Shown in pieces: positions 8,218 to 61,874 of a stretch of 64,000 nucleotides of DNA. Position 1 is the stretch's first letter. Every line of letters starts with the position of its first letter. The translations under genes were made by a program, and so were the position numbers. The stretch is taken from positions 1 to 64,000 of the forward strand of contig SCVN01000007.1 of NCBI GenBank assembly GCA_004296885.1, in the 5' to 3' direction. The DNA comes from Nitrospirota bacterium (GTDB taxonomy: Bacteria > Nitrospirota > Nitrospiria > Nitrospirales > Nitrospiraceae). The notes under the pieces were generated by a model. The model was not told where the DNA came from. It ran no database searches and saw only the letters and a list, made by a program, of their open reading frames with translations.

Positions 8218-10941
<2,724 letters not shown>

Positions 10942-10959
10942 CGGACCAGGAGACCCGCC

Positions 10960-11181
10960 ATGTCTAAGAAATTCACGGCGGTGCTCACCAAGGAAGACAC
11001 GTGGCACGTCGCTCATTGCGTCGAACTGGGCGTGGTGAGCCAGGACAACACGGTTGAAGAAGCCCAAAGTAACCTCAAAGAGGCCGTCGAACTCTACCTG
11101 GAGAGCTTTGGGACAGAGGACCTGCCTGAAAGCACGGGTGAAGTGATGTTCTATCCTCTTGAGGTCACGGTCGGTGGCTAA
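10960..11181 (+). CDS. hicB: HicB-family antitoxin
   Basis: The 73-residue protein has the partial RNase H-like HicB fold: FTAVLTKEDTWHVAHCVELGVVSQDNTVEEAQSNL is split here as an opening beta-hairpin followed by the helix with EEAQSNLKEAVELYLES. HicB neutralises the HicA mRNA interferase and often autoregulates the operon. It begins 18 bases after the secA stop with GGAG before the ATG. It overlaps the first codons of the hicA frame by eight bases, the usual type of coupling for this pair. No C-terminal DNA-binding domain is visible, as in short HicBs. Its toxin partner is interrupted, so the protein may now be an orphan antitoxin. Confidence 0.8.
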   Translation: MSKKFTAVLTKEDTWHVAHCVELGVVSQDNTVEEAQSNLKEAVELYLESFGTEDLPESTGEVMFYPLEVTVGG

Positions 11182-11395
11182 ACGGCCGGTCCTCTCCTGA
11201 AAGACACTCATCGCAGCGCTCAAGAAGGACGGCTTCGAGGTCGTGAGGCAGAAGGGACGTCATGTGAGTCTTCGAAAGGGAGCCAAGAGAACGGTGGTCC
11301 CGCTCCACGATGAGTTGGCACAGGGAACCCTGCTCGGCATTCTGAAACAATGCGACCTTTCAAAGGAAGCCCTGTTGAGCCTGATGAGGCAATAG
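11174..11395 (+). pseudogene. hicA: HicA-type mRNA interferase, interrupted by in-frame TGA
   Basis: From the GTG at 11174 the frame reads VAKRPVLS, then TGA at 11198-11200, then KTLIAALKKDGFEVVRQ and on through the HicA hallmark KGRHVSLRKG (with the catalytic-type histidine), VVPLHDELAQGTLLGIL and a stop at 11393. The family normally has a glycine where the TGA lies (LSGKE/LSGKT), so one GGA-to-TGA change explains it. The total of 73 sense-plus-stop positions equals a full-length HicA. Overlap with hicB is typical. No good start codon lies between the TGA and the conserved KKDGF segment, so an active product is unlikely unless the stop is read through or is a sequence error. Confidence 0.8.
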
Positions 11396-13065
11396 GCCCG
11401 TTGTCGCTGCCCCTGCGGCTCCGGCAAGACATACGAGCGGTTCATACTCTCCTCGTATCCGTCCTGGCCGCCCTCCTCCTGAGCGCGCCTGCCGCGCTGG
11501 CGCAGGCGCCAGCCACCGTTCCCCTCTTCAACAACCTCGGCACCCTGCATCATCCGATCACGACCCCGTCCGACCTGGCGCAGCAATACTTCGACCAAGG
11601 GCTCCGGCTGGTGTACGGCTTCAACCACGAAGAGGCGATCAACTCGTTCCAGGAAGCGGCGCGCCAGGACCCTCTCGCAGCCATGCCCTACTGGGGCATC
11701 GCGCTCGCGCTCGGGCCCAACGTCAACGCCGAGATGGACAAGGTGCAGGCGCGCCGGGCGGTGGAGGCGATCCACAAGGCCAAGGCCAGACTGGCCCAGG
11801 CCTCCCCGCAGGAGCGGGCGTACATCGACGCCCTGGCCACACGCTATTCCACGGACAAGAAAACCAAACGGCAGATTCTGGACCAGGCCTATGCCAACGC
11901 CATGCGCCAGGTCTCACGTCGCTTCCCGGACGACACGGATGCCGCCGTACTGTTCGCCGAGGCGCTTATGGACCTGAGCCCCTGGAATTACTGGACGCCG
12001 GACGGCAAGCCGAAGCCGGGGCTGGAGGAAGTCGTCCCGACGCTGGAGCAGGTCATCGCCCGACATCCGGACCATCCGGGCGCCTGCCACTACTACATCC
12101 ATGCGGTCGAGGCCTCCGCGCAGCCGGAGCGCGCGCTTCCCTGCGCGCAGCGGCTGCCGAGCCTGATGCCCGGCGCCGGCCACCTGGTCCACATGCCGGC
12201 CCACATCTATATGCGACTCGGGCAGTACAAGGCGGCGGTCGAGCGCAACGCCGAAGCCGCGGACGTGGACCAGGCCTACCTGGACCGGCGCCGCCTCACG
12301 GGCGACTATCCTCACAGCTACTACTTGCACAACATTCACTTTCTCTGGGCCGCGTTGCTGATGGAAGGCCGGAGCAAGGAGGCCCTGCAAGCGGCCCACC
12401 GGCTCATCTCCACGATGCGAGAAGAAGATCCCGACAAGGTCAGCCATCCGGATTTCTTCGCCTCCGTTCCGCTGTTGACCCTCGCGCGATTCGGCCGCTG
12501 GGACGAGCTGCTGCGCGAGCCGGCCCCCAAGCCGGAGTGGCGGCTCACCGTCGGCCTCTGGCATTACGCCCGCGCCCTGGCGCTGACCGCCACGGAACGG
12601 TTCGGCCAGGCGGAAGCCGAGCAGGCCGAACTCCTCGAGAGCATCAAGCTCCTGTCCAAACAGCGCGGAGCCGAGGCGGAGACGGAGCGGCAGGTGCTCA
12701 AGGTGGCCGAGCGGGTGGCGGCGGGAGAGCTGGCGGCCAAGCGCCGGGACTTCGACGAAGCCATCCGGGCGCTCAAAGAAGCAGTCGCGTTGGAAGACGC
12801 CCTCCGCTACAGCGAGCCTCCCTACTGGCACGCTCCGGCGCGGCAGAACCTGGGCGCCCTGCTGATGGCCGTCGGACATCCGATCGAGGCGGAAACGGTC
12901 TACCGGGAAGATTTGAAACGGAACCCCGAGAACGGCTGGTCGCTCTTCGGTCTGGCCCAAAGCCTGCGCGCGCAAGAGAAGATGGAGGACGCTCGGACGG
13001 TGGAGGATCGCTTCCGGCAAGCCTGGGTCCGCGCCGACGTCAAGCTCGCCGAATCACGGTTTTAA
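11350..13065 (+). CDS. Secreted TPR-repeat protein
   Basis: The frame gives 571 residues. The real protein begins around VHTLLVSVLAALLLSAPAALAQ, a signal peptide near residues 31-52. It continues with TPR-like helical pairs (DQGLRLVYGFNHEEAINSFQEAARQDP and similar), an alpha-solenoid up to the C-terminus, and motifs such as HPGACHYYIHAVEAS and HMPAHIYMRLGQY common in a large bacterial family of secreted TPR proteins of unknown role. The start is uncertain: the ATG at 11350 lies inside the hicA reading frame, and the residues before the signal peptide are encoded partly by the secA-derived repeat at 11407. The original 5' end has probably been replaced; TTG at 11401 or CTG at 11407 are alternatives. 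Confidence 0.8.
   Translation: MRPFKGSPVEPDEAIGPLSLPLRLRQDIRAVHTLLVSVLAALLLSAPAALAQAPATVPLFNNLGTLHHPITTPSDLAQQYFDQGLRLVYGFNHEEAINSFQEAARQDPLAAMPYWGIALALGPNVNAEMDKVQARRAVEAIHKAKARLAQASPQERAYIDALATRYSTDKKTKRQILDQAYANAMRQVSRRFPDDTDAAVLFAEALMDLSPWNYWTPDGKPKPGLEEVVPTLEQVIARHPDHPGACHYYIHAVEASAQPERALPCAQRLPSLMPGAGHLVHMPAHIYMRLGQYKAAVERNAEAADVDQAYLDRRRLTGDYPHSYYLHNIHFLWAALLMEGRSKEALQAAHRLISTMREEDPDKVSHPDFFASVPLLTLARFGRWDELLREPAPKPEWRLTVGLWHYARALALTATERFGQAEAEQAELLESIKLLSKQRGAEAETERQVLKVAERVAAGELAAKRRDFDEAIRALKEAVALEDALRYSEPPYWHAPARQNLGALLMAVGHPIEAETVYREDLKRNPENGWSLFGLAQSLRAQEKMEDARTVEDRFRQAWVRADVKLAESRF
11407..11429 (+). repeat. Direct repeat copy 2 (secA-derived)
   Basis: The 23 bases are identical to 10893-10915. 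Read in the secA frame the copy would give CPCGSGKTYE, so it is a fragment of the SEC-C zinc tail stranded upstream of the TPR gene, where it is read in another frame. Confidence 0.85.
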
Positions 13066-55134: not shown

Positions 55135-55204
55135 ACATGGGGCTCGGCCAAGCGGGGCGCGCCTTGCCTTGACAAAGCCGCGGCGCGGGTGCTACCTCCT
55201 TGCG

Positions 55205-55987
55205 ATGCTCGAATTGAAGGAAAAACCGGCGTCGGCCAGGCCTCTTCCGCCTCCGCCGGAGGGGACCGTGCCCGACTGGTCCGGCAAGGGCAAGGAGCAG
55301 GCGGTCCAGCGGATGTTCACCGCCATCGCCCGCTGGTACGACCTGAACAACTCGCTCCTCAGTTTCGGCCTGCACCATCGCTGGAAACGCCGCGCCGCTG
55401 CCTTCGTCCCGACGACTCAGGCCGGCCGCGCCATGGATATCGGCGCCGGCACCGGCGATCTGGCCCTCTTGATCCACCCGCGCATGGGCGAAGGAGGCCG
55501 CGTGGCGGCGGTGGACCTGAACCAGGCCATGCTCCGGGAAGGCGTGCGCAAGATCGCCGGACGAGGACTCGACGGCCATGTCACCTGTCTGCGCGCCAAT
55601 GCCGAACAGTTAGGATTCCGGGACAACAGCTTCGACGCGGTGACGACGGGATTTTGCATCAGGAACGTGAGCGATCTCCTGAGGGCTTGTACGGAAATCT
55701 GCCGGGTCTTGAAGCCCGGCGGCCGGTTCGTCTGTCTGGAGTTTTCCCGCCCGGTCAGCCCTTGGCTGCTGAACCTCTACGACTGGTACTCGTTCAGCCT
55801 CCTGCCCAAGGTCGGCACGCTCGTGGCCCACGATAAGACCGGCGTCTATCGCTACCTGCCCGCCTCCATCCGCGCCTTTCCCGACCAGGAAGGACTCAAA
55901 TCCCTCTTGCTCAAGGCCGGGTTCCGGCAGGTGGACTATCACAATGTGAGCGGCGGGATCGTCGCGATCCATGTGGCAATCAAATAG
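55205..55987 (+). CDS. ubiE: UbiE/MenG-type C-methyltransferase
   Basis: The 260-residue class I methyltransferase shows [20 protein letters not shown] with the FD/YD motif, the SAM loop [13 protein letters not shown] (about 77-89), a second motif [21 protein letters not shown]-type segment with FCIRNV, and [15 protein letters not shown]. It methylates the quinone ring in menaquinone or ubiquinone synthesis; Nitrospirota use menaquinone, so the MenG role is likelier. The ATG at 55205 begins the protein despite a poor ribosome-binding site; a TTG at 55169 would add 12 residues. A word-palindrome joins it to the next gene. Confidence 0.92.
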
Positions 55988-56073: not shown

Positions 56074-57693
56074 ATGAACTCGATTCTTTACGTCTTCCTG
56101 CCGTGCAAAAAGGTGTACCCGATCGGGATCACTTATTTGGCGGATTTTATCCATCGGCGGCGACCCGATGTCCGGCAACAAATTCTGGACTTGTCGGTCT
56201 ACCCGCAAACGGAGCGGCCGAAAGTCCTGCGGGACGCAGCCATGGCGTTCGCGCCGGACCTGGTCTGTTTCTCCTGGCGGGACATTCAGATTTTCTCTCC
56301 CCACGAAGGGGATGCGTCGCTGGAACATGCGTTCAATTTTTACTTTTCGAGCAACCCGATCAAGAAAATCGCCGCCTCGTTCCAGGGTGTCAAACAGCTC
56401 TATCGGTATTACAACGACATCCGGACCAACCTGTCCTACCCCTGGCTGATCCGGAACGAGTTCCCCCAGACTCAGATCATGATCGGGGGCGGGGCTTTCA
56501 CCGCCTTCGCGGACCAGTTGATCGAGAAACTGCCGGAAGGGACGGTCGGCATCCTCGGCGAAGGCGAGGACGCCATCCTCAAGATGGTGGAAGGCCGCTC
56601 CCTCGCGGAGGAACGGTTTATCGTCAAAGAAGGGGGGAAGGTCTCCAAAGGCGAACAGGGATCGCCTGCCCTGTTGGACGCCCTGACCGTGGATTTGCCT
56701 TACCTCACCGGCATCTTCCCCCAATACCGGGACTATCTCGACGAATCCATCGGCGTCCAAAGCAAGCGCGGCTGTCCTTACGACTGTGCCTTCTGTCTCT
56801 ATCCCTATATCGAGGGCAAACGGGTCCGGTACCGGCCGCCGGAGATGGTCGTCAAGGACATCGCGCAACATTATCACCAATGGGGCGCGCGCAAGTTCTG
56901 GTTCACGGACGCCCAGTTCATCACCGGTAAGGAAGCCTATCCCCAATGTACGGAGATTCTGGAGCGTATCCTCCGCGAGAAGCTGGACATCCAATGGTCC
57001 GGCTACATCCGAACCTCGCTGATCACGGCGGACCTGGCCAAGCTCATGGTCCGCTCGGGAGTCGGAGACCTGGAAGTGGCCATTACCTCCGGTTCGCAGG
57101 AGGTCCTCAACAACCTCCATATGGGGTTCAAGTTGGAGCGGCTCTATGACGGTTGCCGGTACCTGGCCGAAGCCGGCTTTCAAGGCAAGGTCATCCTGAA
57201 CTACTCCCTGAACTCCCCCAAGGAAACCGAGGACACCCTCTTGCAGAGCGTCGAATCGTACAAAACGGTCGCCTCAATCCTGGGCGAGGAACGGGTGTTT
57301 CCCTTGATGTTTTTCCTGGGCATCCAACCGAACACGGACTTGGAACATCGGCTGCTGGAGGAGGGGTACCTCTCGGCCGGCTACAATCCGCTGATGCTCA
57401 CCCCGACCAGCATCAGAAAACTCCTCTATAACCCGGCCCCGTTGAACAAAATCATCGCCAAGGCCTGCCTGACCGCCTGGCATAAGAAACAGGGGAGTCA
57501 GGACCCCCGTCCCTGGTCCGGCTCCCTCTCCGCCAAGCCCCAAGCCTATGCGGACGGCAGCCTTATCCGCGGGGTCGAACACAACAGCGGGCGCCAGGCT
57601 CTGCTGACGCTGGAAGAGATTCTCAGGTCACGAAAAACCGCTGGTTCTTCAGCTGCTTCGCCATCGGGGCCGGCCGTCAGCCGAGCGGGCTAA
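56074..57693 (+). CDS. Cobalamin-type radical SAM enzyme (BchE/Elp3-like layout)
   Basis: A 539-residue enzyme. The N-terminal part (about 1-180) has a Rossmann-like B12-binding layout with IGITYLADFIHRR, FAPDLVCFSWRD and MIGGGAFTAF, without an evident DxHxxG motif. The radical SAM motif CPYDCAFC lies near residue 234 and is followed by FWFTDAQF and YIRTSLI. The C-terminal 60 residues are Ser/Pro-rich and probably disordered. The order resembles the BchE/methylthiotransferase-like superfamily. It is next to a PCP_red cluster, so a substrate such as a porphyrin is possible; this is inference. Another B12-dependent reaction cannot be excluded. Confidence 0.8.
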   Translation: MNSILYVFLPCKKVYPIGITYLADFIHRRRPDVRQQILDLSVYPQTERPKVLRDAAMAFAPDLVCFSWRDIQIFSPHEGDASLEHAFNFYFSSNPIKKIAASFQGVKQLYRYYNDIRTNLSYPWLIRNEFPQTQIMIGGGAFTAFADQLIEKLPEGTVGILGEGEDAILKMVEGRSLAEERFIVKEGGKVSKGEQGSPALLDALTVDLPYLTGIFPQYRDYLDESIGVQSKRGCPYDCAFCLYPYIEGKRVRYRPPEMVVKDIAQHYHQWGARKFWFTDAQFITGKEAYPQCTEILERILREKLDIQWSGYIRTSLITADLAKLMVRSGVGDLEVAITSGSQEVLNNLHMGFKLERLYDGCRYLAEAGFQGKVILNYSLNSPKETEDTLLQSVESYKTVASILGEERVFPLMFFLGIQPNTDLEHRLLEEGYLSAGYNPLMLTPTSIRKLLYNPAPLNKIIAKACLTAWHKKQGSQDPRPWSGSLSAKPQAYADGSLIRGVEHNSGRQALLTLEEILRSRKTAGSSAASPSGPAVSRAG

Positions 57694-57721
57694 CGCCCCT
57701 TTTCATCCCCCCAGATGCTGC

Positions 57722-57751
57722 TTGCATTCTCAACATTTCCGATGCTATCAT
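57722..57751 (+). promoter_or_regulatory. Candidate sigma-70 promoter for the PCP_red operon
   Basis: TTGCAT (57722-57727) and TATCAT (57746-57751) are separated by 18 bases, about 100 bases before the start of the stress/PCP_red gene. It fits an operon of three genes starting at 57852. Confidence 0.45.
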
Positions 57752-57851
57752 GCCTTCTCATTTTAGCCCGGCGATATCTCGGAATCGGTTCAATTTCCTA
57801 ACGATTTTCTCGATCTCGACGTTTGCCAGGGGGCCTGAAGGAGGCGGGTAG

Positions 57852-59975
57852 ATGTACAAGACGATTTATGTCCCGGTGGATAACTCGGACTATTCCAATA
57901 CAGCCGTCGACGTGGGCGTCGACCTGGCCAAAACGTTCGGCGCCAAAATTGTCGGGAGCCATGTCTATGCGGCGAAGATGCATGACAAGCGCTTCAAACA
58001 GATGGAGGCCGGACTGCCGGAGGAGTATCACGACGAAAAAGAACTGGATCGGCAACGCCAGATCCACGACTCGCTGATCACCCGCGGCCTCCAAATCATC
58101 ACCGACTCCTACCTCGACTACGTGGACAAGCGATGCACCGAGGCCAACTTGCCCCTGGAGCGCCGCTCCCTGGAGGGGCGGAACTGGAAGGTACTGGCCG
58201 AAGACATCAATCAGAACGCCTACGACCTCGTGATCATGGGCGCCCTCGGCGTCGGCGCGGTGAAAGACAGCGTGATCGGCAGCAACACCGAGCGCGTCGT
58301 GCGCCGCGTGCGGACCTCCGACATGCTGATCATCAAGAACACGCAGCCGACGACCAGCGGCAAGATCGTCGTCGCGGTGGACGGCAGCGCCTACTCGTTC
58401 GGCGGGCTGATGACCGCCCTGGCCTTGGGGAAGGCCTTGAATCGGCCGGTGGAAGCCATCTCGGCCTTCGACCCCTATTTCCACTATGCGGCGTTCCACA
58501 GCATTTCCGGCGTCCTCAACGAGGAGGCCGGCAAGGTCTTCCGGTTCAAGGAGCAGGAAAAGCTGCACGAAGAAATCATCGACAGCGGCTTGGCCAAGAT
58601 CTACCAGTCGCACCTGGACATTTCCCGCGAGATCGCCCAAGCCGAGAACACGGACATCAAGACCACCCTGCTGGACGGGAAGGCCTTCGAGAAGGTCATC
58701 CAGTACGTCCGCAAGGACGTCCCCTGGCTCCTGATCGTCGGCCGAATCGGCGTGCACAGCGACGAGGACATGGACATCGGCAGCAACACGGAGAACCTTT
58801 TGCGCGCCGCCCCCTGCAACGTGCTGGTCTCCAACCGCAAGTATACCCCGCCCATCGACACCCAGGCCGAGTACACCATCGCCTGGACCGAAGAGGCCCT
58901 GCGACGGATGGAGAGGATTCCGGTGTTTGCGCGCGGCGTGGCCAAGACAGCCATCCACCGGTATGCGATCGAGAAGGGCCACACGATCATCAGCAACACG
59001 GTGGTGGACGCGGCGGTCGGGCACATCCTGCCGAAAGGCGCGATGGACGCCATGCGGGCGCTCGGCGGGAGCCTGGACGCCGCCGGCATCGACCGGGACA
59101 AGATGCAGGCCGATGATTCCGTGGCCAAGGACCTGATGGGCGGCACGCTCAGCGGCATGATGACCGAGATCGTGCAGGAGAAGCCGACGGTGAGCGCCGG
59201 CACCCAAGCTTACTTGGACCGGATGAGCCAGACCTACTTCGTCTGCGACGGCTGCGGCTACATCGGCAAGGGCGACACGCCGGTGAAGTGTCCCGTCTGC
59301 ATGGCGGAGGGCGCGCGTTTCAAGCAGGTGGACAAGAGCATCTTCGAAGCGGCGGCCAAGGCGGAAGGGCAGCTGGAAACGGAACTGGCCTACGACGACG
59401 TGCCAATGCAGTGGACCAAGGACGCCAAGGAAGCCATCCGGAGCGTCCCGGCCGGGTTCCAGCGTCGGCGCGCCAAGGCCAAGATCGAAAAGACGGCCCG
59501 GAAGCTGGGCATGACCACGATTACGCTCGAGTATGCGGCGCCGATAATCAAGGAAGCGGCGACCGAGGACTATACCCCCATCTTTGCGAACAAAGGCACC
59601 GGCACGGCCCCGGAGACGGAGGCCGCGCTCCATGCCGACCAAGGCAACGGCCAAAGTAACGGCCATGGCAACGGGCATGCAACCGGCGGCAACGGAGGTA
59701 GTTCGATGTCTGCTCCCGCCCCTCTCACCTGGACCCCGGACGCGCAGGCGCGCCTCGACCGCGTGCCCCCCGGTTTCATGCGCGACTGTACCAAGGCGCT
59801 GATCCTGAAGCATGCCGAAAAGGTCGGCGCGACCACGATCACCCTCGACGTGGCCAATGCGGGGATCGAACAAGCCAAGGGCACGATGGAAGAAGCAATG
59901 AAGACGGGCAACCTGAAGGATATCCTCGAACGCCTGGGCGTCGGCCCCCAGCCGGGATCCTCCCAGAATGGGTAA
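57852..59975 (+). CDS. Double universal-stress protein with zinc ribbon and three PCP_red domains
   Basis: A 707-residue mosaic. USP domain 1 (about 1-160) and USP domain 2 (about 170-335) carry ATP-binding-type loops such as VIMGALGVGAVKDSVIGSNTE and LIVGRIGVHSDED. PCP_red repeat 1 follows (about 344-390, WTEEALRRMERIPVFARG), then a rubredoxin-like ribbon CDGCGYIG...CPVC (about 463-482), PCP_red 2 (about 520-565, WTKDAKEAIRSVP), an Asn/Gly/His linker, and PCP_red 3 (about 627-675, WTPDAQARLDRVPPGFMR). PCP_red is known from the light-independent protochlorophyllide reductase BchB, where it helps bind the substrate. GGAGG precedes the ATG. An internal ATG at 59706 with its own GGAGG could yield the last domain alone. 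Confidence 0.85.
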   Translation: MYKTIYVPVDNSDYSNTAVDVGVDLAKTFGAKIVGSHVYAAKMHDKRFKQMEAGLPEEYHDEKELDRQRQIHDSLITRGLQIITDSYLDYVDKRCTEANLPLERRSLEGRNWKVLAEDINQNAYDLVIMGALGVGAVKDSVIGSNTERVVRRVRTSDMLIIKNTQPTTSGKIVVAVDGSAYSFGGLMTALALGKALNRPVEAISAFDPYFHYAAFHSISGVLNEEAGKVFRFKEQEKLHEEIIDSGLAKIYQSHLDISREIAQAENTDIKTTLLDGKAFEKVIQYVRKDVPWLLIVGRIGVHSDEDMDIGSNTENLLRAAPCNVLVSNRKYTPPIDTQAEYTIAWTEEALRRMERIPVFARGVAKTAIHRYAIEKGHTIISNTVVDAAVGHILPKGAMDAMRALGGSLDAAGIDRDKMQADDSVAKDLMGGTLSGMMTEIVQEKPTVSAGTQAYLDRMSQTYFVCDGCGYIGKGDTPVKCPVCMAEGARFKQVDKSIFEAAAKAEGQLETELAYDDVPMQWTKDAKEAIRSVPAGFQRRRAKAKIEKTARKLGMTTITLEYAAPIIKEAATEDYTPIFANKGTGTAPETEAALHADQGNGQSNGHGNGHATGGNGGSSMSAPAPLTWTPDAQARLDRVPPGFMRDCTKALILKHAEKVGATTITLDVANAGIEQAKGTMEEAMKTGNLKDILERLGVGPQPGSSQNG
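59706..59975 (+). other. Possible internally started single PCP_red protein
   Basis: In frame with the long protein, ATG at 59706 is preceded by GGAGG at 59694-59698 with seven bases between, an excellent ribosome-binding site inside a gene. It would give an 89-residue protein made only of the last PCP_red domain, beginning MSAPAPLTW. The adjacent linker (Asn/Gly/His repeats) looks like a former gene junction. Confidence 0.4.
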
Positions 59976-61347
59976 GGCCCTTCCGATTTTCAATTTTCCC
60001 GCCCTCGCGGGCAAATTCGACTCGCTCGAACAGCAGATCAAGCAGTTCGTGACGTCGCCCGGCGTGACGCCGGGCGACGGGCGGACGGTGGACGACTTCA
60101 AGCCCTTCCTGATCGCCCTCAACCTCACCAAGCGCTGCAACCTCAAATGCGACCATTGCTACCTGGACGCCACCACCAAGGCCGGCGGAGGATCGGACGA
60201 GCTGACCACGGAGGAATGCGTCCGCCTGATCGACCAGATTGCGGAAGTGAACCGGGGCTGCCTCTTAGTGATCACCGGCGGGGAACCGCTGACCCGTCCG
60301 GATATTCTGGACATCGCACGCCACGCGGTGGGGCTCGGCTTCATGGTCGTGTTCGGCACCAACGGGATGCTGATCAACGACCGCATGGCCAAGGAACTGG
60401 TGGAGATCGGCGTCATGGGCGTGGGCATTAGCATCGACTCGCTGGACGCCAAGAAGCACAACCGTTTCCGCGGACTCGAAGGGGCCTGGGAAGGCGCCGT
60501 GGCCGGCATCGAGGCGTGCAAGCGCAATGGGCTCCAGTTCCAGGTGCATTTCAGCGCCCAGCCGATGAACTATCAAGAGCTGCCGGATGTGGTCGAGTGG
60601 GCCCATACCCTGGGCGCCAAGGTGCTGAACGTCTTCTTCATGGTCTGCACGGGCCGCGGCGAAGAGCTGACCGACATCACCCCGGCCCAGTATGAAGAAG
60701 TCCTGGGCTACCTGGTCGATTGCCAGGACAAGTACAAGGACATGCTGGTCCGCGCCCGCTGCGCACCCCACTTCAAACGCCTGGCCTACGAGAAGGACCC
60801 CAACTCCCCGATCACCAAGGCCCAGGGGTATATGGGTGGGGGCTGCCTGGCCGGCACCAATTACGCCCGGGTGACTCCGAACGGCGAGCTGACCCCCTGT
60901 CCCTACATGCCGCTCTCGGCGGGGAATGTCCGCGAGAAGAGCTTCGTGGATCTCTGGGAACGGTCCGACATCTTCGACTCCTTCCGTTATCCGCATCTCA
61001 AAGGCAAATGCGGAGATTGCGAATACAGCGAAATTTGCGGCGGCTGCCGTGCCAGGCCGTATGTGGATCACGGGGACTGGCTGGACGAGGACCAGTGGTG
61101 CCTCTACACCCCGAAGGGCGGCGCGAAGGTGCAGGTGGCCTTCAACACGCCGGAGGAAAGCACCGCGGTCTGGGAAGAGGCGGCGCAGACCCGGCTCGAC
61201 CGCATCCCCTACTTTCTCCGTGCCATGGTCAGGAAGGGCGTCGAGCGGCACGCGCGCGAGCAAGGCCTGGCCGTCATCACCGTCGAGTTGATGGAAGAGC
61301 TCCGCAAAAAGCGCTTCGGCAACGACGCCCCGGTGTTTAAATTCTAA
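59968..61347 (+). CDS. AhbC/NirJ-like radical SAM-SPASM enzyme with C-terminal PCP_red domain
   Basis: The 459-residue enzyme begins with a 50-residue lead, then the radical SAM motif in NLTKRCNLKCDHCYLDA (CxxxCxxC near 56-63), VITGGEPLTRPDI, and a SPASM-type auxiliary cluster region CGDCEYSEICGGCRARPYVDHGDWL-type (about 345-375) with a further Cys. It closely resembles NirJ/AhbC/AhbD, which modify tetrapyrrole side chains in heme and heme d1 biosynthesis. The last 60 residues form a PCP_red domain (RLDRIPYFLRAMVRKGVERHA). It overlaps the preceding gene by eight bases and the following gene by one, so the three are coupled. The exact tetrapyrrole substrate is unknown. Confidence 0.87.
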   Translation: MGKALPIFNFPALAGKFDSLEQQIKQFVTSPGVTPGDGRTVDDFKPFLIALNLTKRCNLKCDHCYLDATTKAGGGSDELTTEECVRLIDQIAEVNRGCLLVITGGEPLTRPDILDIARHAVGLGFMVVFGTNGMLINDRMAKELVEIGVMGVGISIDSLDAKKHNRFRGLEGAWEGAVAGIEACKRNGLQFQVHFSAQPMNYQELPDVVEWAHTLGAKVLNVFFMVCTGRGEELTDITPAQYEEVLGYLVDCQDKYKDMLVRARCAPHFKRLAYEKDPNSPITKAQGYMGGGCLAGTNYARVTPNGELTPCPYMPLSAGNVREKSFVDLWERSDIFDSFRYPHLKGKCGDCEYSEICGGCRARPYVDHGDWLDEDQWCLYTPKGGAKVQVAFNTPEESTAVWEEAAQTRLDRIPYFLRAMVRKGVERHAREQGLAVITVELMEELRKKRFGNDAPVFKF

Positions 61348-61874
61348 TGGACGCGCTGCAATCACTCCTGACCGATCTCAACCAGTTGATCCCGATCGTC
61401 AACCATTGGCTGCACCTGGTCTCGGCCGTCATCTGGATCGGCGGCCTGGCCTTCCTGGTCATGGCGGTGACGCCAGGCTTGAAGACCGCGGTGCCCAAGG
61501 AATACATCAAGCCCATCGCCGACACGTTTTACCGGCAGTACAAGCGCGTGGTGGGCGTCCTGCTGGTCGTGATTCTCTTCACCGGCGGAATCAATCTCCA
61601 CTATGTGAACCAGCTGCTGGTTTCCCAAACCGGGGCCGGCATTCCCCACCATGCCAAGTACCTGACCGTGTTCTTCATCAAGTTGTTCCTGGTTCTGGGC
61701 ATCCTGACGCTCTTCCTCTACACCATCATCTTCAAGACCGAGCCGACCGGCGAAGAAACGGCCGAGGAGCGGGAGGAGCAGATGGCGGAGCCGGTCCCCT
61801 TCCAGCGCGTGGCTTTATGGCTCGGCCTCCTCATCATCCTCTGCGCCGCCGCCCTGAAACACTTGCACCAGTAG
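61347..61874 (+). CDS. CopD/HemJ-like integral membrane protein
   Basis: A 175-residue protein with four predicted helices. The first carries HWLHLVSAVIWIGGLAFLV, the His and W-x-G-G pattern of the CopD/HemJ superfamily. HemJ oxidises protoporphyrinogen IX and CopD-like proteins bind copper, so both readings are possible. The charged cytoplasmic stretch (about 130-150) is followed by a last helix and a terminal HLHQ. Its start overlaps the stop of the radical SAM gene by one base (TAATG). Coupling to a tetrapyrrole-type enzyme favours the HemJ-like reading. Confidence 0.72.
   Translation: MDALQSLLTDLNQLIPIVNHWLHLVSAVIWIGGLAFLVMAVTPGLKTAVPKEYIKPIADTFYRQYKRVVGVLLVVILFTGGINLHYVNQLLVSQTGAGIPHHAKYLTVFFIKLFLVLGILTLFLYTIIFKTEPTGEETAEEREEQMAEPVPFQRVALWLGLLIILCAAALKHLHQ

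Follow-up and report, generated by a model that had tools for sequence, protein, structure and literature searches.

What do PCP_red domains (PF08369) do in a bacterium without BchB, the protochlorophyllide reductase subunit of which they form the C-terminal domain elsewhere? The question is raised by a gene cluster of a Nitrospirota bacterium, found in the window analyzed here (positions 1 to 64,000 of contig SCVN01000007.1, assembly GCA_004296885.1). The initial annotation regarded it as a possible undescribed tetrapyrrole system in a non-phototroph. The answer proposed below is that the PCP_red proteins may process and deliver a tetrapyrrole for a bd-like oxidase complex.

The PCP_red cluster and its proteins

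The cluster and its upstream neighbors comprise the following genes and domains.

55169..55987, + strand: UbiE/MenG methyltransferase (PF01209, 3.8e-71), neighbor outside the module
56074..57693, + strand: B12 radical SAM protein, Slr0320-type relative (NF045585, 438 bits), neighbor probably outside the module
57852..59975, + strand: tandem-USP/PCP_red protein, 707 aa (Pfam: two Usp, PCP_red, zinc ribbon, two PCP_red)
57852..58319, + strand: USP domain 1, aa 1-156 (Pfam; G130/G133/G143 invariant)
58365..58835, + strand: USP domain 2, about aa 172-328 (Pfam Usp stretch, boundaries from the model; G297/G300/G310 invariant)
58884..59015, + strand: PCP_red domain 1, aa 345-388 (53.7 bits)
59238..59324, + strand: rubredoxin-like zinc ribbon, aa 463-491 (RUBY_RBDX 24.0 bits; rubredoxin part of nigerythrin 32 bits)
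59412..59531, + strand: PCP_red domain 2 of the USP protein (42.6 bits)
59730..59855, + strand: PCP_red domain 3 of the USP protein (37.8 bits)
59968..61347, + strand: rSAM-PCP enzyme, 459 aa, radical SAM, SPASM and C-terminal PCP_red (Pfam)
61171..61305, + strand: PCP_red domain of the rSAM enzyme, aa 402-446 (63.6 bits; matches the solved 2kru and 2l09; helical in the model)
61347..61874, + strand: CopD-superfamily membrane protein coupled to the rSAM gene (CopD 1e-5, sub-threshold)

As the initial annotation had claimed, four PCP_red domains occur in two coupled proteins, three in the tandem-USP protein and one in the rSAM-PCP enzyme. The Pfam matches exceeded the gathering cut-off of 32.5 (115.4 and 59.1 bits per protein, 37.8-63.6 for single domains). 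The rSAM gene shares 8 bases with the USP gene before it and 1 base with the CopD-like gene behind it; 158 bases separate the end of the B12 radical SAM gene from the USP gene. An Rfam scan of the window gave no matches, and promoter and terminator scans gave no signal above that of shuffled sequences.

The tandem-USP protein matched PCP_red (E value 1.1e-33 for the whole protein) and Usp (6e-32), and its RUBY_RBDX score was slightly under the Pfam cut-off of 26.5. Its tandem-USP fold resembles those of Rv2623, UspE and TTHA0350 (AlphaFold2/Foldseek). The ATP motif G-2x-G-9x-G(S/T) is intact in each USP domain and invariant in 30 homologues, and both domains are predicted from this motif to be of the ATP-binding type. 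Some homologues of this USP partner have no PCP_red. The membrane protein had been described as CopD/HemJ-like. The coupling and a sub-threshold CopD match (26.3 bits, cut-off 32.1) are confirmed, together with weak matches to DUF4149 and DUF2269, but the HemJ identity was dropped because that Pfam family gave no match at E<1. H23, W30, P43, T79, G80, Y105 and K112 are invariant in the CopD-superfamily protein.

The set is larger than originally proposed, since the genome holds 12 PCP_red domains in five proteins, those of the window included. All matches above the cut-off genome-wide fall in these five, none of which is BchB, and the best match to BchL, at 33.8 bits, lies far below its cut-off of 345; judged by BchB and BchL, the absence of other phototrophy genes, previously noted for the window, extends to the whole genome. 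PCP_red matches the solved 2kru and the C-termini of BchB/ChlB of the dark-operative protochlorophyllide reductase, but this genome lacks the nitrogenase-like BchB body as well as BchL. Asr4154 of Nostoc (solved as 2l09) is likewise a case of PCP_red outside BchB, differing in that it is a small stand-alone protein. A literature search on PCP_red, Asr4154 and Nitrospira with protochlorophyllide led nowhere. The PCP_red set is established for Nitrospiria, and fusions and neighborhoods join its members. A protein with four PCP_red domains (4xPCP) is fused to rSAM in loci L083 and L114 (41% over 333 aa with L083) and adjoins it in L201-L205, and in Poribacteria the genes for an Mrp-type ATPase and a zinc-ribbon-PCP protein lie beside those for CopD and rSAM-PCP. 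In the genome studied here, the gene for a protein with two PCP_red domains (2xPCP) adjoins two bd-like oxidase genes.

Among 299 distinct PCP_red domains, potential axial ligands reached at most 24% (His), 6% (Cys) and 52% (Met, one column) in any column. With no conserved His or Cys, the domain is not expected to act as a conventional ligand of heme iron. Binding of a tetrapyrrole without ligation by the protein stays compatible with the PCP_red columns.

Distribution and the link to the bd-like oxidase

The rSAM-PCP protein was present in 38 of 41 relatives, mostly at 80-98% identity, which rules out a chance arrangement. The pair of USP and rSAM-PCP genes is previously undescribed, and its conservation spans Nitrospirota, Proteobacteria and Poribacteria; a CopD-superfamily gene adjoins rSAM in Poribacteria and most Nitrospiria. 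The pair shares one operon, in many proteobacteria and in distant Nitrospirota, with a bd-like oxidase, two cytochromes c and an alternative NxrC (alt-NxrC), a protein with cytochrome c and heme b. The genes run in the same direction in proteobacteria, and partly in distant Nitrospirota, in the order bd-like oxidase, cytochrome c, cytochrome c, alt-NxrC, USP, rSAM-PCP, HemY.

The link of the module to the bd-like oxidase is strong. Of the Nitrospirota genomes outside the class Nitrospiria, 123 carried neither the oxidase nor the enzyme, 19 carried both, 3 the enzyme alone and none the oxidase alone (Fisher p 5.5e-21). The genomes with both span 9 families, and the co-occurrence is not fully independent by descent. 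The association was predicted for Poribacteria before it was checked, and both of the two chromosomes carry the bd-like oxidase, cytochrome c and alt-NxrC, the oxidase cluster lying about 23 kb from rSAM-PCP in one of them. An apparent absence of rSAM-PCP in families f7, f10 and f12 was an artifact of scoring seven candidates per genome: the fetched f7 and f10 regions carry USP-rSAM-PCP-4xPCP-CopD, and a short f12 contig carries USP and the start of rSAM. The enzyme was not found in two f9 genomes (G224 and G254).

Conserved bd-like oxidases, whose role has been termed enigmatic, occur in Nitrospira, Nitrospina and anammox bacteria; those of Nitrospira are strongly expressed, and Nitrospira lacks canonical heme-copper oxidases (PMC3578206, PMC6606698). 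The bd-like and alt-NxrC cluster described in these studies has the identical gene set that is found elsewhere in operons with USP-rSAM-PCP. A search of the two texts for these terms gave no mention of protochlorophyllide in PMC3578206 and none of a universal stress or radical SAM partner in PMC6606698. The bd-like/alt-NxrC complex was not among the proposals of the initial annotation. Since the module accompanies every bd-like oxidase found in Nitrospirota outside Nitrospiria and resembles heme chemistry, it offers a handle on the pigment of this oxidase and on its maker.

The rSAM-PCP enzyme and the possible function of the module

The rSAM-PCP enzyme matched Radical_SAM, SPASM and, at the C-terminus, PCP_red (4.2e-16), and its AlphaFold2 model had a pLDDT of 82.8. 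Its core is nearest to NirJ2 (TIGR04055, 324.6 bits) and AhbD (TIGR04545, 313 bits), which it matches over the entire radical SAM/SPASM domain, the C-terminal PCP_red being the addition of rSAM-PCP. For both families it misses the equivalog cut-off of 500. The AhbD profile gave 290-345 bits with five distant rSAM-PCP homologues and 444-445 bits with the AhbD-like proteins of Nitrospirota, which are likewise below the cut-off. CxxxCxxC (57/61/64) and the SPASM Cys 293/311/348/351/357/360/378 are invariant in 49 rSAM-PCP homologues. The AhbD-like proteins share these radical SAM and auxiliary-cluster cysteines (Cys 57, 61, 64, 265, 293, 311, 348, 351, 357, 360 and 378) but have about 15 positions fixed otherwise. 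The outgroup of the rSAM tree was too poor to root the split between AhbD and rSAM-PCP.

A HemY-type porphyrinogen oxidase gene lies within two genes downstream of rSAM-PCP in 30 of 85 loci, and 23 of these 30 junctions overlap. The module-linked HemY forms a clade separate from the general HemY of Nitrospirota. Across several phyla the module thus travels with the bd-like oxidase and with heme-making genes, and its probable role is the processing of heme or a porphyrin specifically for that oxidase. The coupling to HemY in about 30 loci, the kinship with AhbD/NirJ2 and the linkage to b- and c-type cytochromes favor the tetrapyrrole system first suspected, in which the binding of a tetrapyrrole by PCP_red, a domain without a conserved His or Cys, is presumed.

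We hypothesize that the PCP_red system processes a heme or porphyrin precursor and delivers it for the bd-like oxidase/alt-NxrC complex, a reading to which we give about even chances. The HemY-type flavoenzyme would supply oxidized porphyrin, as the operon's own copy in proteobacteria and perhaps as the general HemY in Nitrospira. The porphyrin would be held and carried by the PCP_red proteins (tandem-USP, 4xPCP, zinc-ribbon-PCP and 2xPCP), with the ATP-binding USP domains as a switch or scaffold and the Mrp-type ATPase as a helper. The rSAM-PCP enzyme, its own PCP_red docking the substrate, may make a radical change to the porphyrin, most simply at a side chain, and the CopD-superfamily protein may pass the product to the membrane, the site of assembly of the bd-like oxidase and alt-NxrC. 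If this is true, PCP_red, chiefly known as the tail of a chlorophyll enzyme, has a wider role. A bolder version, which we consider doubtful, is that a previously unseen type of heme is made and inserted into the bd-like oxidase of nitrite oxidizers and their relatives, with PCP_red carriers and USP gatekeepers, by a pathway outside phototrophy.

SPASM enzymes are mostly peptide maturases, and rSAM-PCP could instead alter a bd-like/alt-NxrC subunit or a cofactor peptide, with PCP_red docking the protein. The nearest solved folds (PqqE, SkfB, SuiB and anSME, with no AhbD or NirJ structure among the matches listed), the lack of a conserved heme ligand in PCP_red and the tie to one membrane complex would all suit such maturation. 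However, no recurrent short precursor gene lies beside rSAM in 91 loci (ORFs of 70 aa and longer), the Pfam scan revealed no RRE/PqqD domain, the nearest sequences are tetrapyrrole enzymes, and the coupling to HemY is left unexplained. We regard peptide or protein modification as unlikely.

It is also unlikely that rSAM-PCP is an alternative heme b synthase that replaces AhbD and decarboxylates Fe-coproporphyrin III without oxygen, PCP_red carrying coproheme, and that it serves ordinary hemes at low oxygen instead of a single oxidase. Besides the kinship with AhbD and the shared cluster cysteines, this proposal draws on the genome itself, which has no second AhbD-like protein (a single match at E<=1e-30) and in which nothing passes the HemN cut-off, and on the HemY linkage elsewhere, which suits a coproporphyrin route. 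The search for bch and heme genes suggested with the initial annotation found neither BchB nor BchL; it recovered, outside the module, HemH, HemY and two ChdC/Cld-family proteins, which suffice for a coproporphyrin-type route to heme b; the HemY gene adjoins HemH and has no link to the module. The idea of rSAM-PCP as simply the missing heme b synthase was dropped for this reason. In addition, an AhbD-like protein and rSAM-PCP coexist in some Nitrospirota (L224/L225 in G257/G175), and the presence of rSAM-PCP tracks the bd-like oxidase.

Improbable, finally, is a scaffold free of tetrapyrrole chemistry, in which PCP_red and USP, by binding ATP and partner proteins, chaperone the assembly of cytochrome complexes under redox stress and the rSAM enzyme acts on an unrelated small molecule. 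Tandem USP domains with intact ATP motifs, the many PCP_red copies, the zinc ribbons and the Mrp ATPase linkage would fit, but an AhbD-like enzyme and the HemY coupling would go unexplained.

The B12 radical SAM neighbor

The cobalamin-type radical SAM gene was correctly noted upstream of the USP gene, but its membership in the system is not borne out. It was found only in Nitrospiria, as a rule adjoining ubiE, and the operons of family f3 keep USP, rSAM-PCP and CopD without it. Of the four genes whose co-occurrence was to be checked, three are retained there, and the B12 radical SAM gene probably lies outside the PCP_red module. A single pathway with this enzyme as an anaerobic cyclase-like step, suggested by its adjacency in Nitrospiria and a weak similarity to BchE (43 bits), is highly improbable given these facts and the far closer Slr0320 family, which also led us to drop a BchE-type role. 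Slr0320 is a B12 radical SAM protein of Synechocystis; its family is the nearest to the neighbor, the score of which falls under the NF045585 cut-off of 775.

The three-gene module and the PCP_red proteins of the genome

Open reading frames and Pfam bore out the anatomy described in the initial annotation. The module in the window consists of:

57852-59975, USP protein (two USP domains, three PCP_red domains, one zinc ribbon)
59968-61347, rSAM-PCP (radical SAM/SPASM enzyme with a C-terminal PCP_red domain)
61347-61874, small CopD-superfamily membrane protein

The domain order of the USP protein is USP, USP, PCP_red, rubredoxin-like zinc ribbon, PCP_red, PCP_red. The three genes overlap and are therefore probably translated jointly. 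Two earlier proposals, that the B12 radical SAM gene upstream (56074-57693) belongs to the set and that the membrane protein compares to HemJ, are to be dropped. A 158-base gap separates the USP gene from the B12 radical SAM gene, which adjoins ubiE in Nitrospiria. Its product is kin of Slr0320, for which action on quinone has been suggested (PMC8065906), and may act on quinone as well.

The proteins encoded by the genome are closest to those from Nitrospirota/Nitrospira genomes (96% for rSAM-PCP). The 3.26 Mb genome carries 12 PCP_red copies, 11 of them exceeding the cut-off, in five proteins. Two are the USP protein and rSAM-PCP in the window, and the others are:

334 aa, four copies (4xPCP)
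248-aa zinc-ribbon protein, two copies, adjoining an Mrp/ApbC ATPase
163 aa, two copies (2xPCP), near two bd-like oxidase genes

These oxidase genes (9851-11767 and from 15633 of stretch L017) share 46-53% identity with the bd-like cluster. PCP_red was present in all sampled genomes of Nitrospiria (101 of the 246 in the sample), mostly at 11-12 copies each. The gene order in two families, f7 and f10, is USP (five PCP_red copies), rSAM-PCP, 4xPCP, CopD. At two loci of more distant Nitrospirota, L083 (41% over 333 aa) and L114, the radical SAM enzyme is fused with the 4xPCP region, and in Poribacteria Mrp, zinc-ribbon-PCP, CopD-like and rSAM-PCP genes are grouped. Since such fusions and operons join their counterparts elsewhere, the PCP_red genes dispersed over this genome were judged to be one system.

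Neither BchB nor BchL was found in the genome, and HemN had no match above cut-off. Even with the window genes set aside, the heme b pathway seems complete: HemY and HemH lie side by side on contig 4 and two ChdC/chlorite-dismutase family proteins are present. Six Nitrospirales genomes of family f3 (G026, G029, G032, G034, G035, G036) have HemY and a ChdC-family protein and lack the ferrochelatase PF00762; therefore, iron insertion there must use something else.

Association with a bd-like oxidase and HemY

Scanning public genomes yielded 80 loci, spread over Nitrospirota, Nitrospinota, Alpha- and Gammaproteobacteria, Poribacteria and others. For 91 loci, all genes in the neighbourhood were clustered, and the clusters were then named. 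A recurrent order was bd-like oxidase (Cyt_bd_oxida_I), two cytochromes c, a cytochrome c with a DMSO-reductase-II heme b domain, USP, rSAM-PCP and a HemY-type protoporphyrinogen oxidase. In kind, the first four genes correspond to a cluster known from Nitrospira, Nitrospina and anammox bacteria, which comprises a bd-like oxidase, cytochromes and alternative NxrC and whose function is described as enigmatic (PMC3578206, PMC6606698). In two sampled genomes, G175 and G119, the USP/rSAM-PCP pair immediately adjoins the bd-like gene and the run extends as far as genes of NarG/NxrA type. In G175 the alpha and beta genes were identified by profile, with 292 bits (TIGR03479) and 262 bits (TIGR03478), each below cut-off. 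The HemY of the operon (TIGR00562, 250-291 bits versus a cut-off of 98) forms a clade separate from the general HemY of Nitrospirota. In 30 of 85 loci HemY follows rSAM-PCP at a distance of no more than two genes, and 23 of these 30 junctions overlap.

Among sampled Nitrospirota outside Nitrospiria, 19 genomes have both the oxidase and a full-length rSAM-PCP, three have only rSAM-PCP, none has only the oxidase, and 123 have neither (Fisher p 5.5e-21, a value inflated by related genomes). As the 19 genomes belong to nine families, the association probably does not go back to a single inheritance. Other Nitrospirota have shorter matches (~360 aa) of AhbD-like type (444-445 bits for the two tested), whose presence does not track the oxidase. 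The resulting prediction, that the oxidase would accompany rSAM-PCP in Poribacteria too, was later checked in two chromosomes and proved right for both, where cytochromes c and alternative NxrC are also present. In one, ~23 kb separate the oxidase from rSAM-PCP, and the genes in between look like CtaA, CtaB and cytochrome oxidase subunits, several named from first residues rather than profiles.

A single 36-kb block on a Poribacteria chromosome (L235-L236) combines the PCP_red set with b6f-like, octaheme, bd-like, cytochrome oxidase and apparent heme A synthesis genes, and thus comes close to a complete respiratory chain. Distant relatives (L086, L164) carry, near rSAM-PCP, a homologue (52%) of a multicopper oxidase-like gene from the genome's own bd-like cluster (L017, 25-2670). 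Upstream of the PCP module, some alphaproteobacteria and one Acidiferrobacteraceae genome have dihaem peroxidases and a Tat Rieske-like protein (L127, L139 2371-5040, L140, L176), and at the single locus tested also an AioA-like molybdoenzyme (TIGR02693, 417 bits); these genes resemble iodate reductase idrABP1P2 clusters.

The enzyme, its partners and their proposed role

The top NCBIfam models for rSAM-PCP were NirJ2 (325) and AhbD, heme b synthase (313), both with a cut-off of 500, and five distant homologues scored in the same pattern. AhbD-like proteins share with it every radical SAM and auxiliary cysteine but differ consistently at ~15 other positions. The AlphaFold2 model (pLDDT 82.8) has a SPASM-type fold. 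Among the matches listed, the closest solved structures were PqqE and peptide maturases and none was AhbD or NirJ; the fold therefore does not decide the substrate. PCP_red has solved relatives in 2kru and 2l09. Across 299 distinct copies its dominant residues are W1, A5, R8, P13, F15, R17, E25, A28, G32 and T37, with no conserved His or Cys.

We give about even weight to the reading that the PCP_red/radical SAM system is dedicated to heme or porphyrin processing and delivery for the bd-like/alternative NxrC complex. Its firmer half is the linkage to that complex, the recipient suggested by the cytochrome and bd-like oxidase neighbours. We infer the tetrapyrrole chemistry from three further lines, the kin of the enzyme, its HemY partner and the PCP_red domain. 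The initial annotation had recognized this kind of system and missed the respiratory partner. The model resembles Ahb/Nir-type radical SAM tetrapyrrole enzymes, although rSAM-PCP does not reach their family cut-offs. Every component family is already known; the assembly of PCP_red carriers, tandem USP, AhbD-like enzyme, HemY and bd-like oxidase was not found in papers of the searched literature, a body whose coverage excludes most subscription journals.

The USP partner has its two USP domains in tandem, and its closest matches are Rv2623 and UspE. It retains both ATP motifs and has long inserts with many invariant His, Glu and Tyr. Conserved insert residues in the two domains (57852-58900) are H44, E52, E57, H72 and D73, and H211, E234, E236, H239, D244 and H254; they may form a site for a metal or cofactor.
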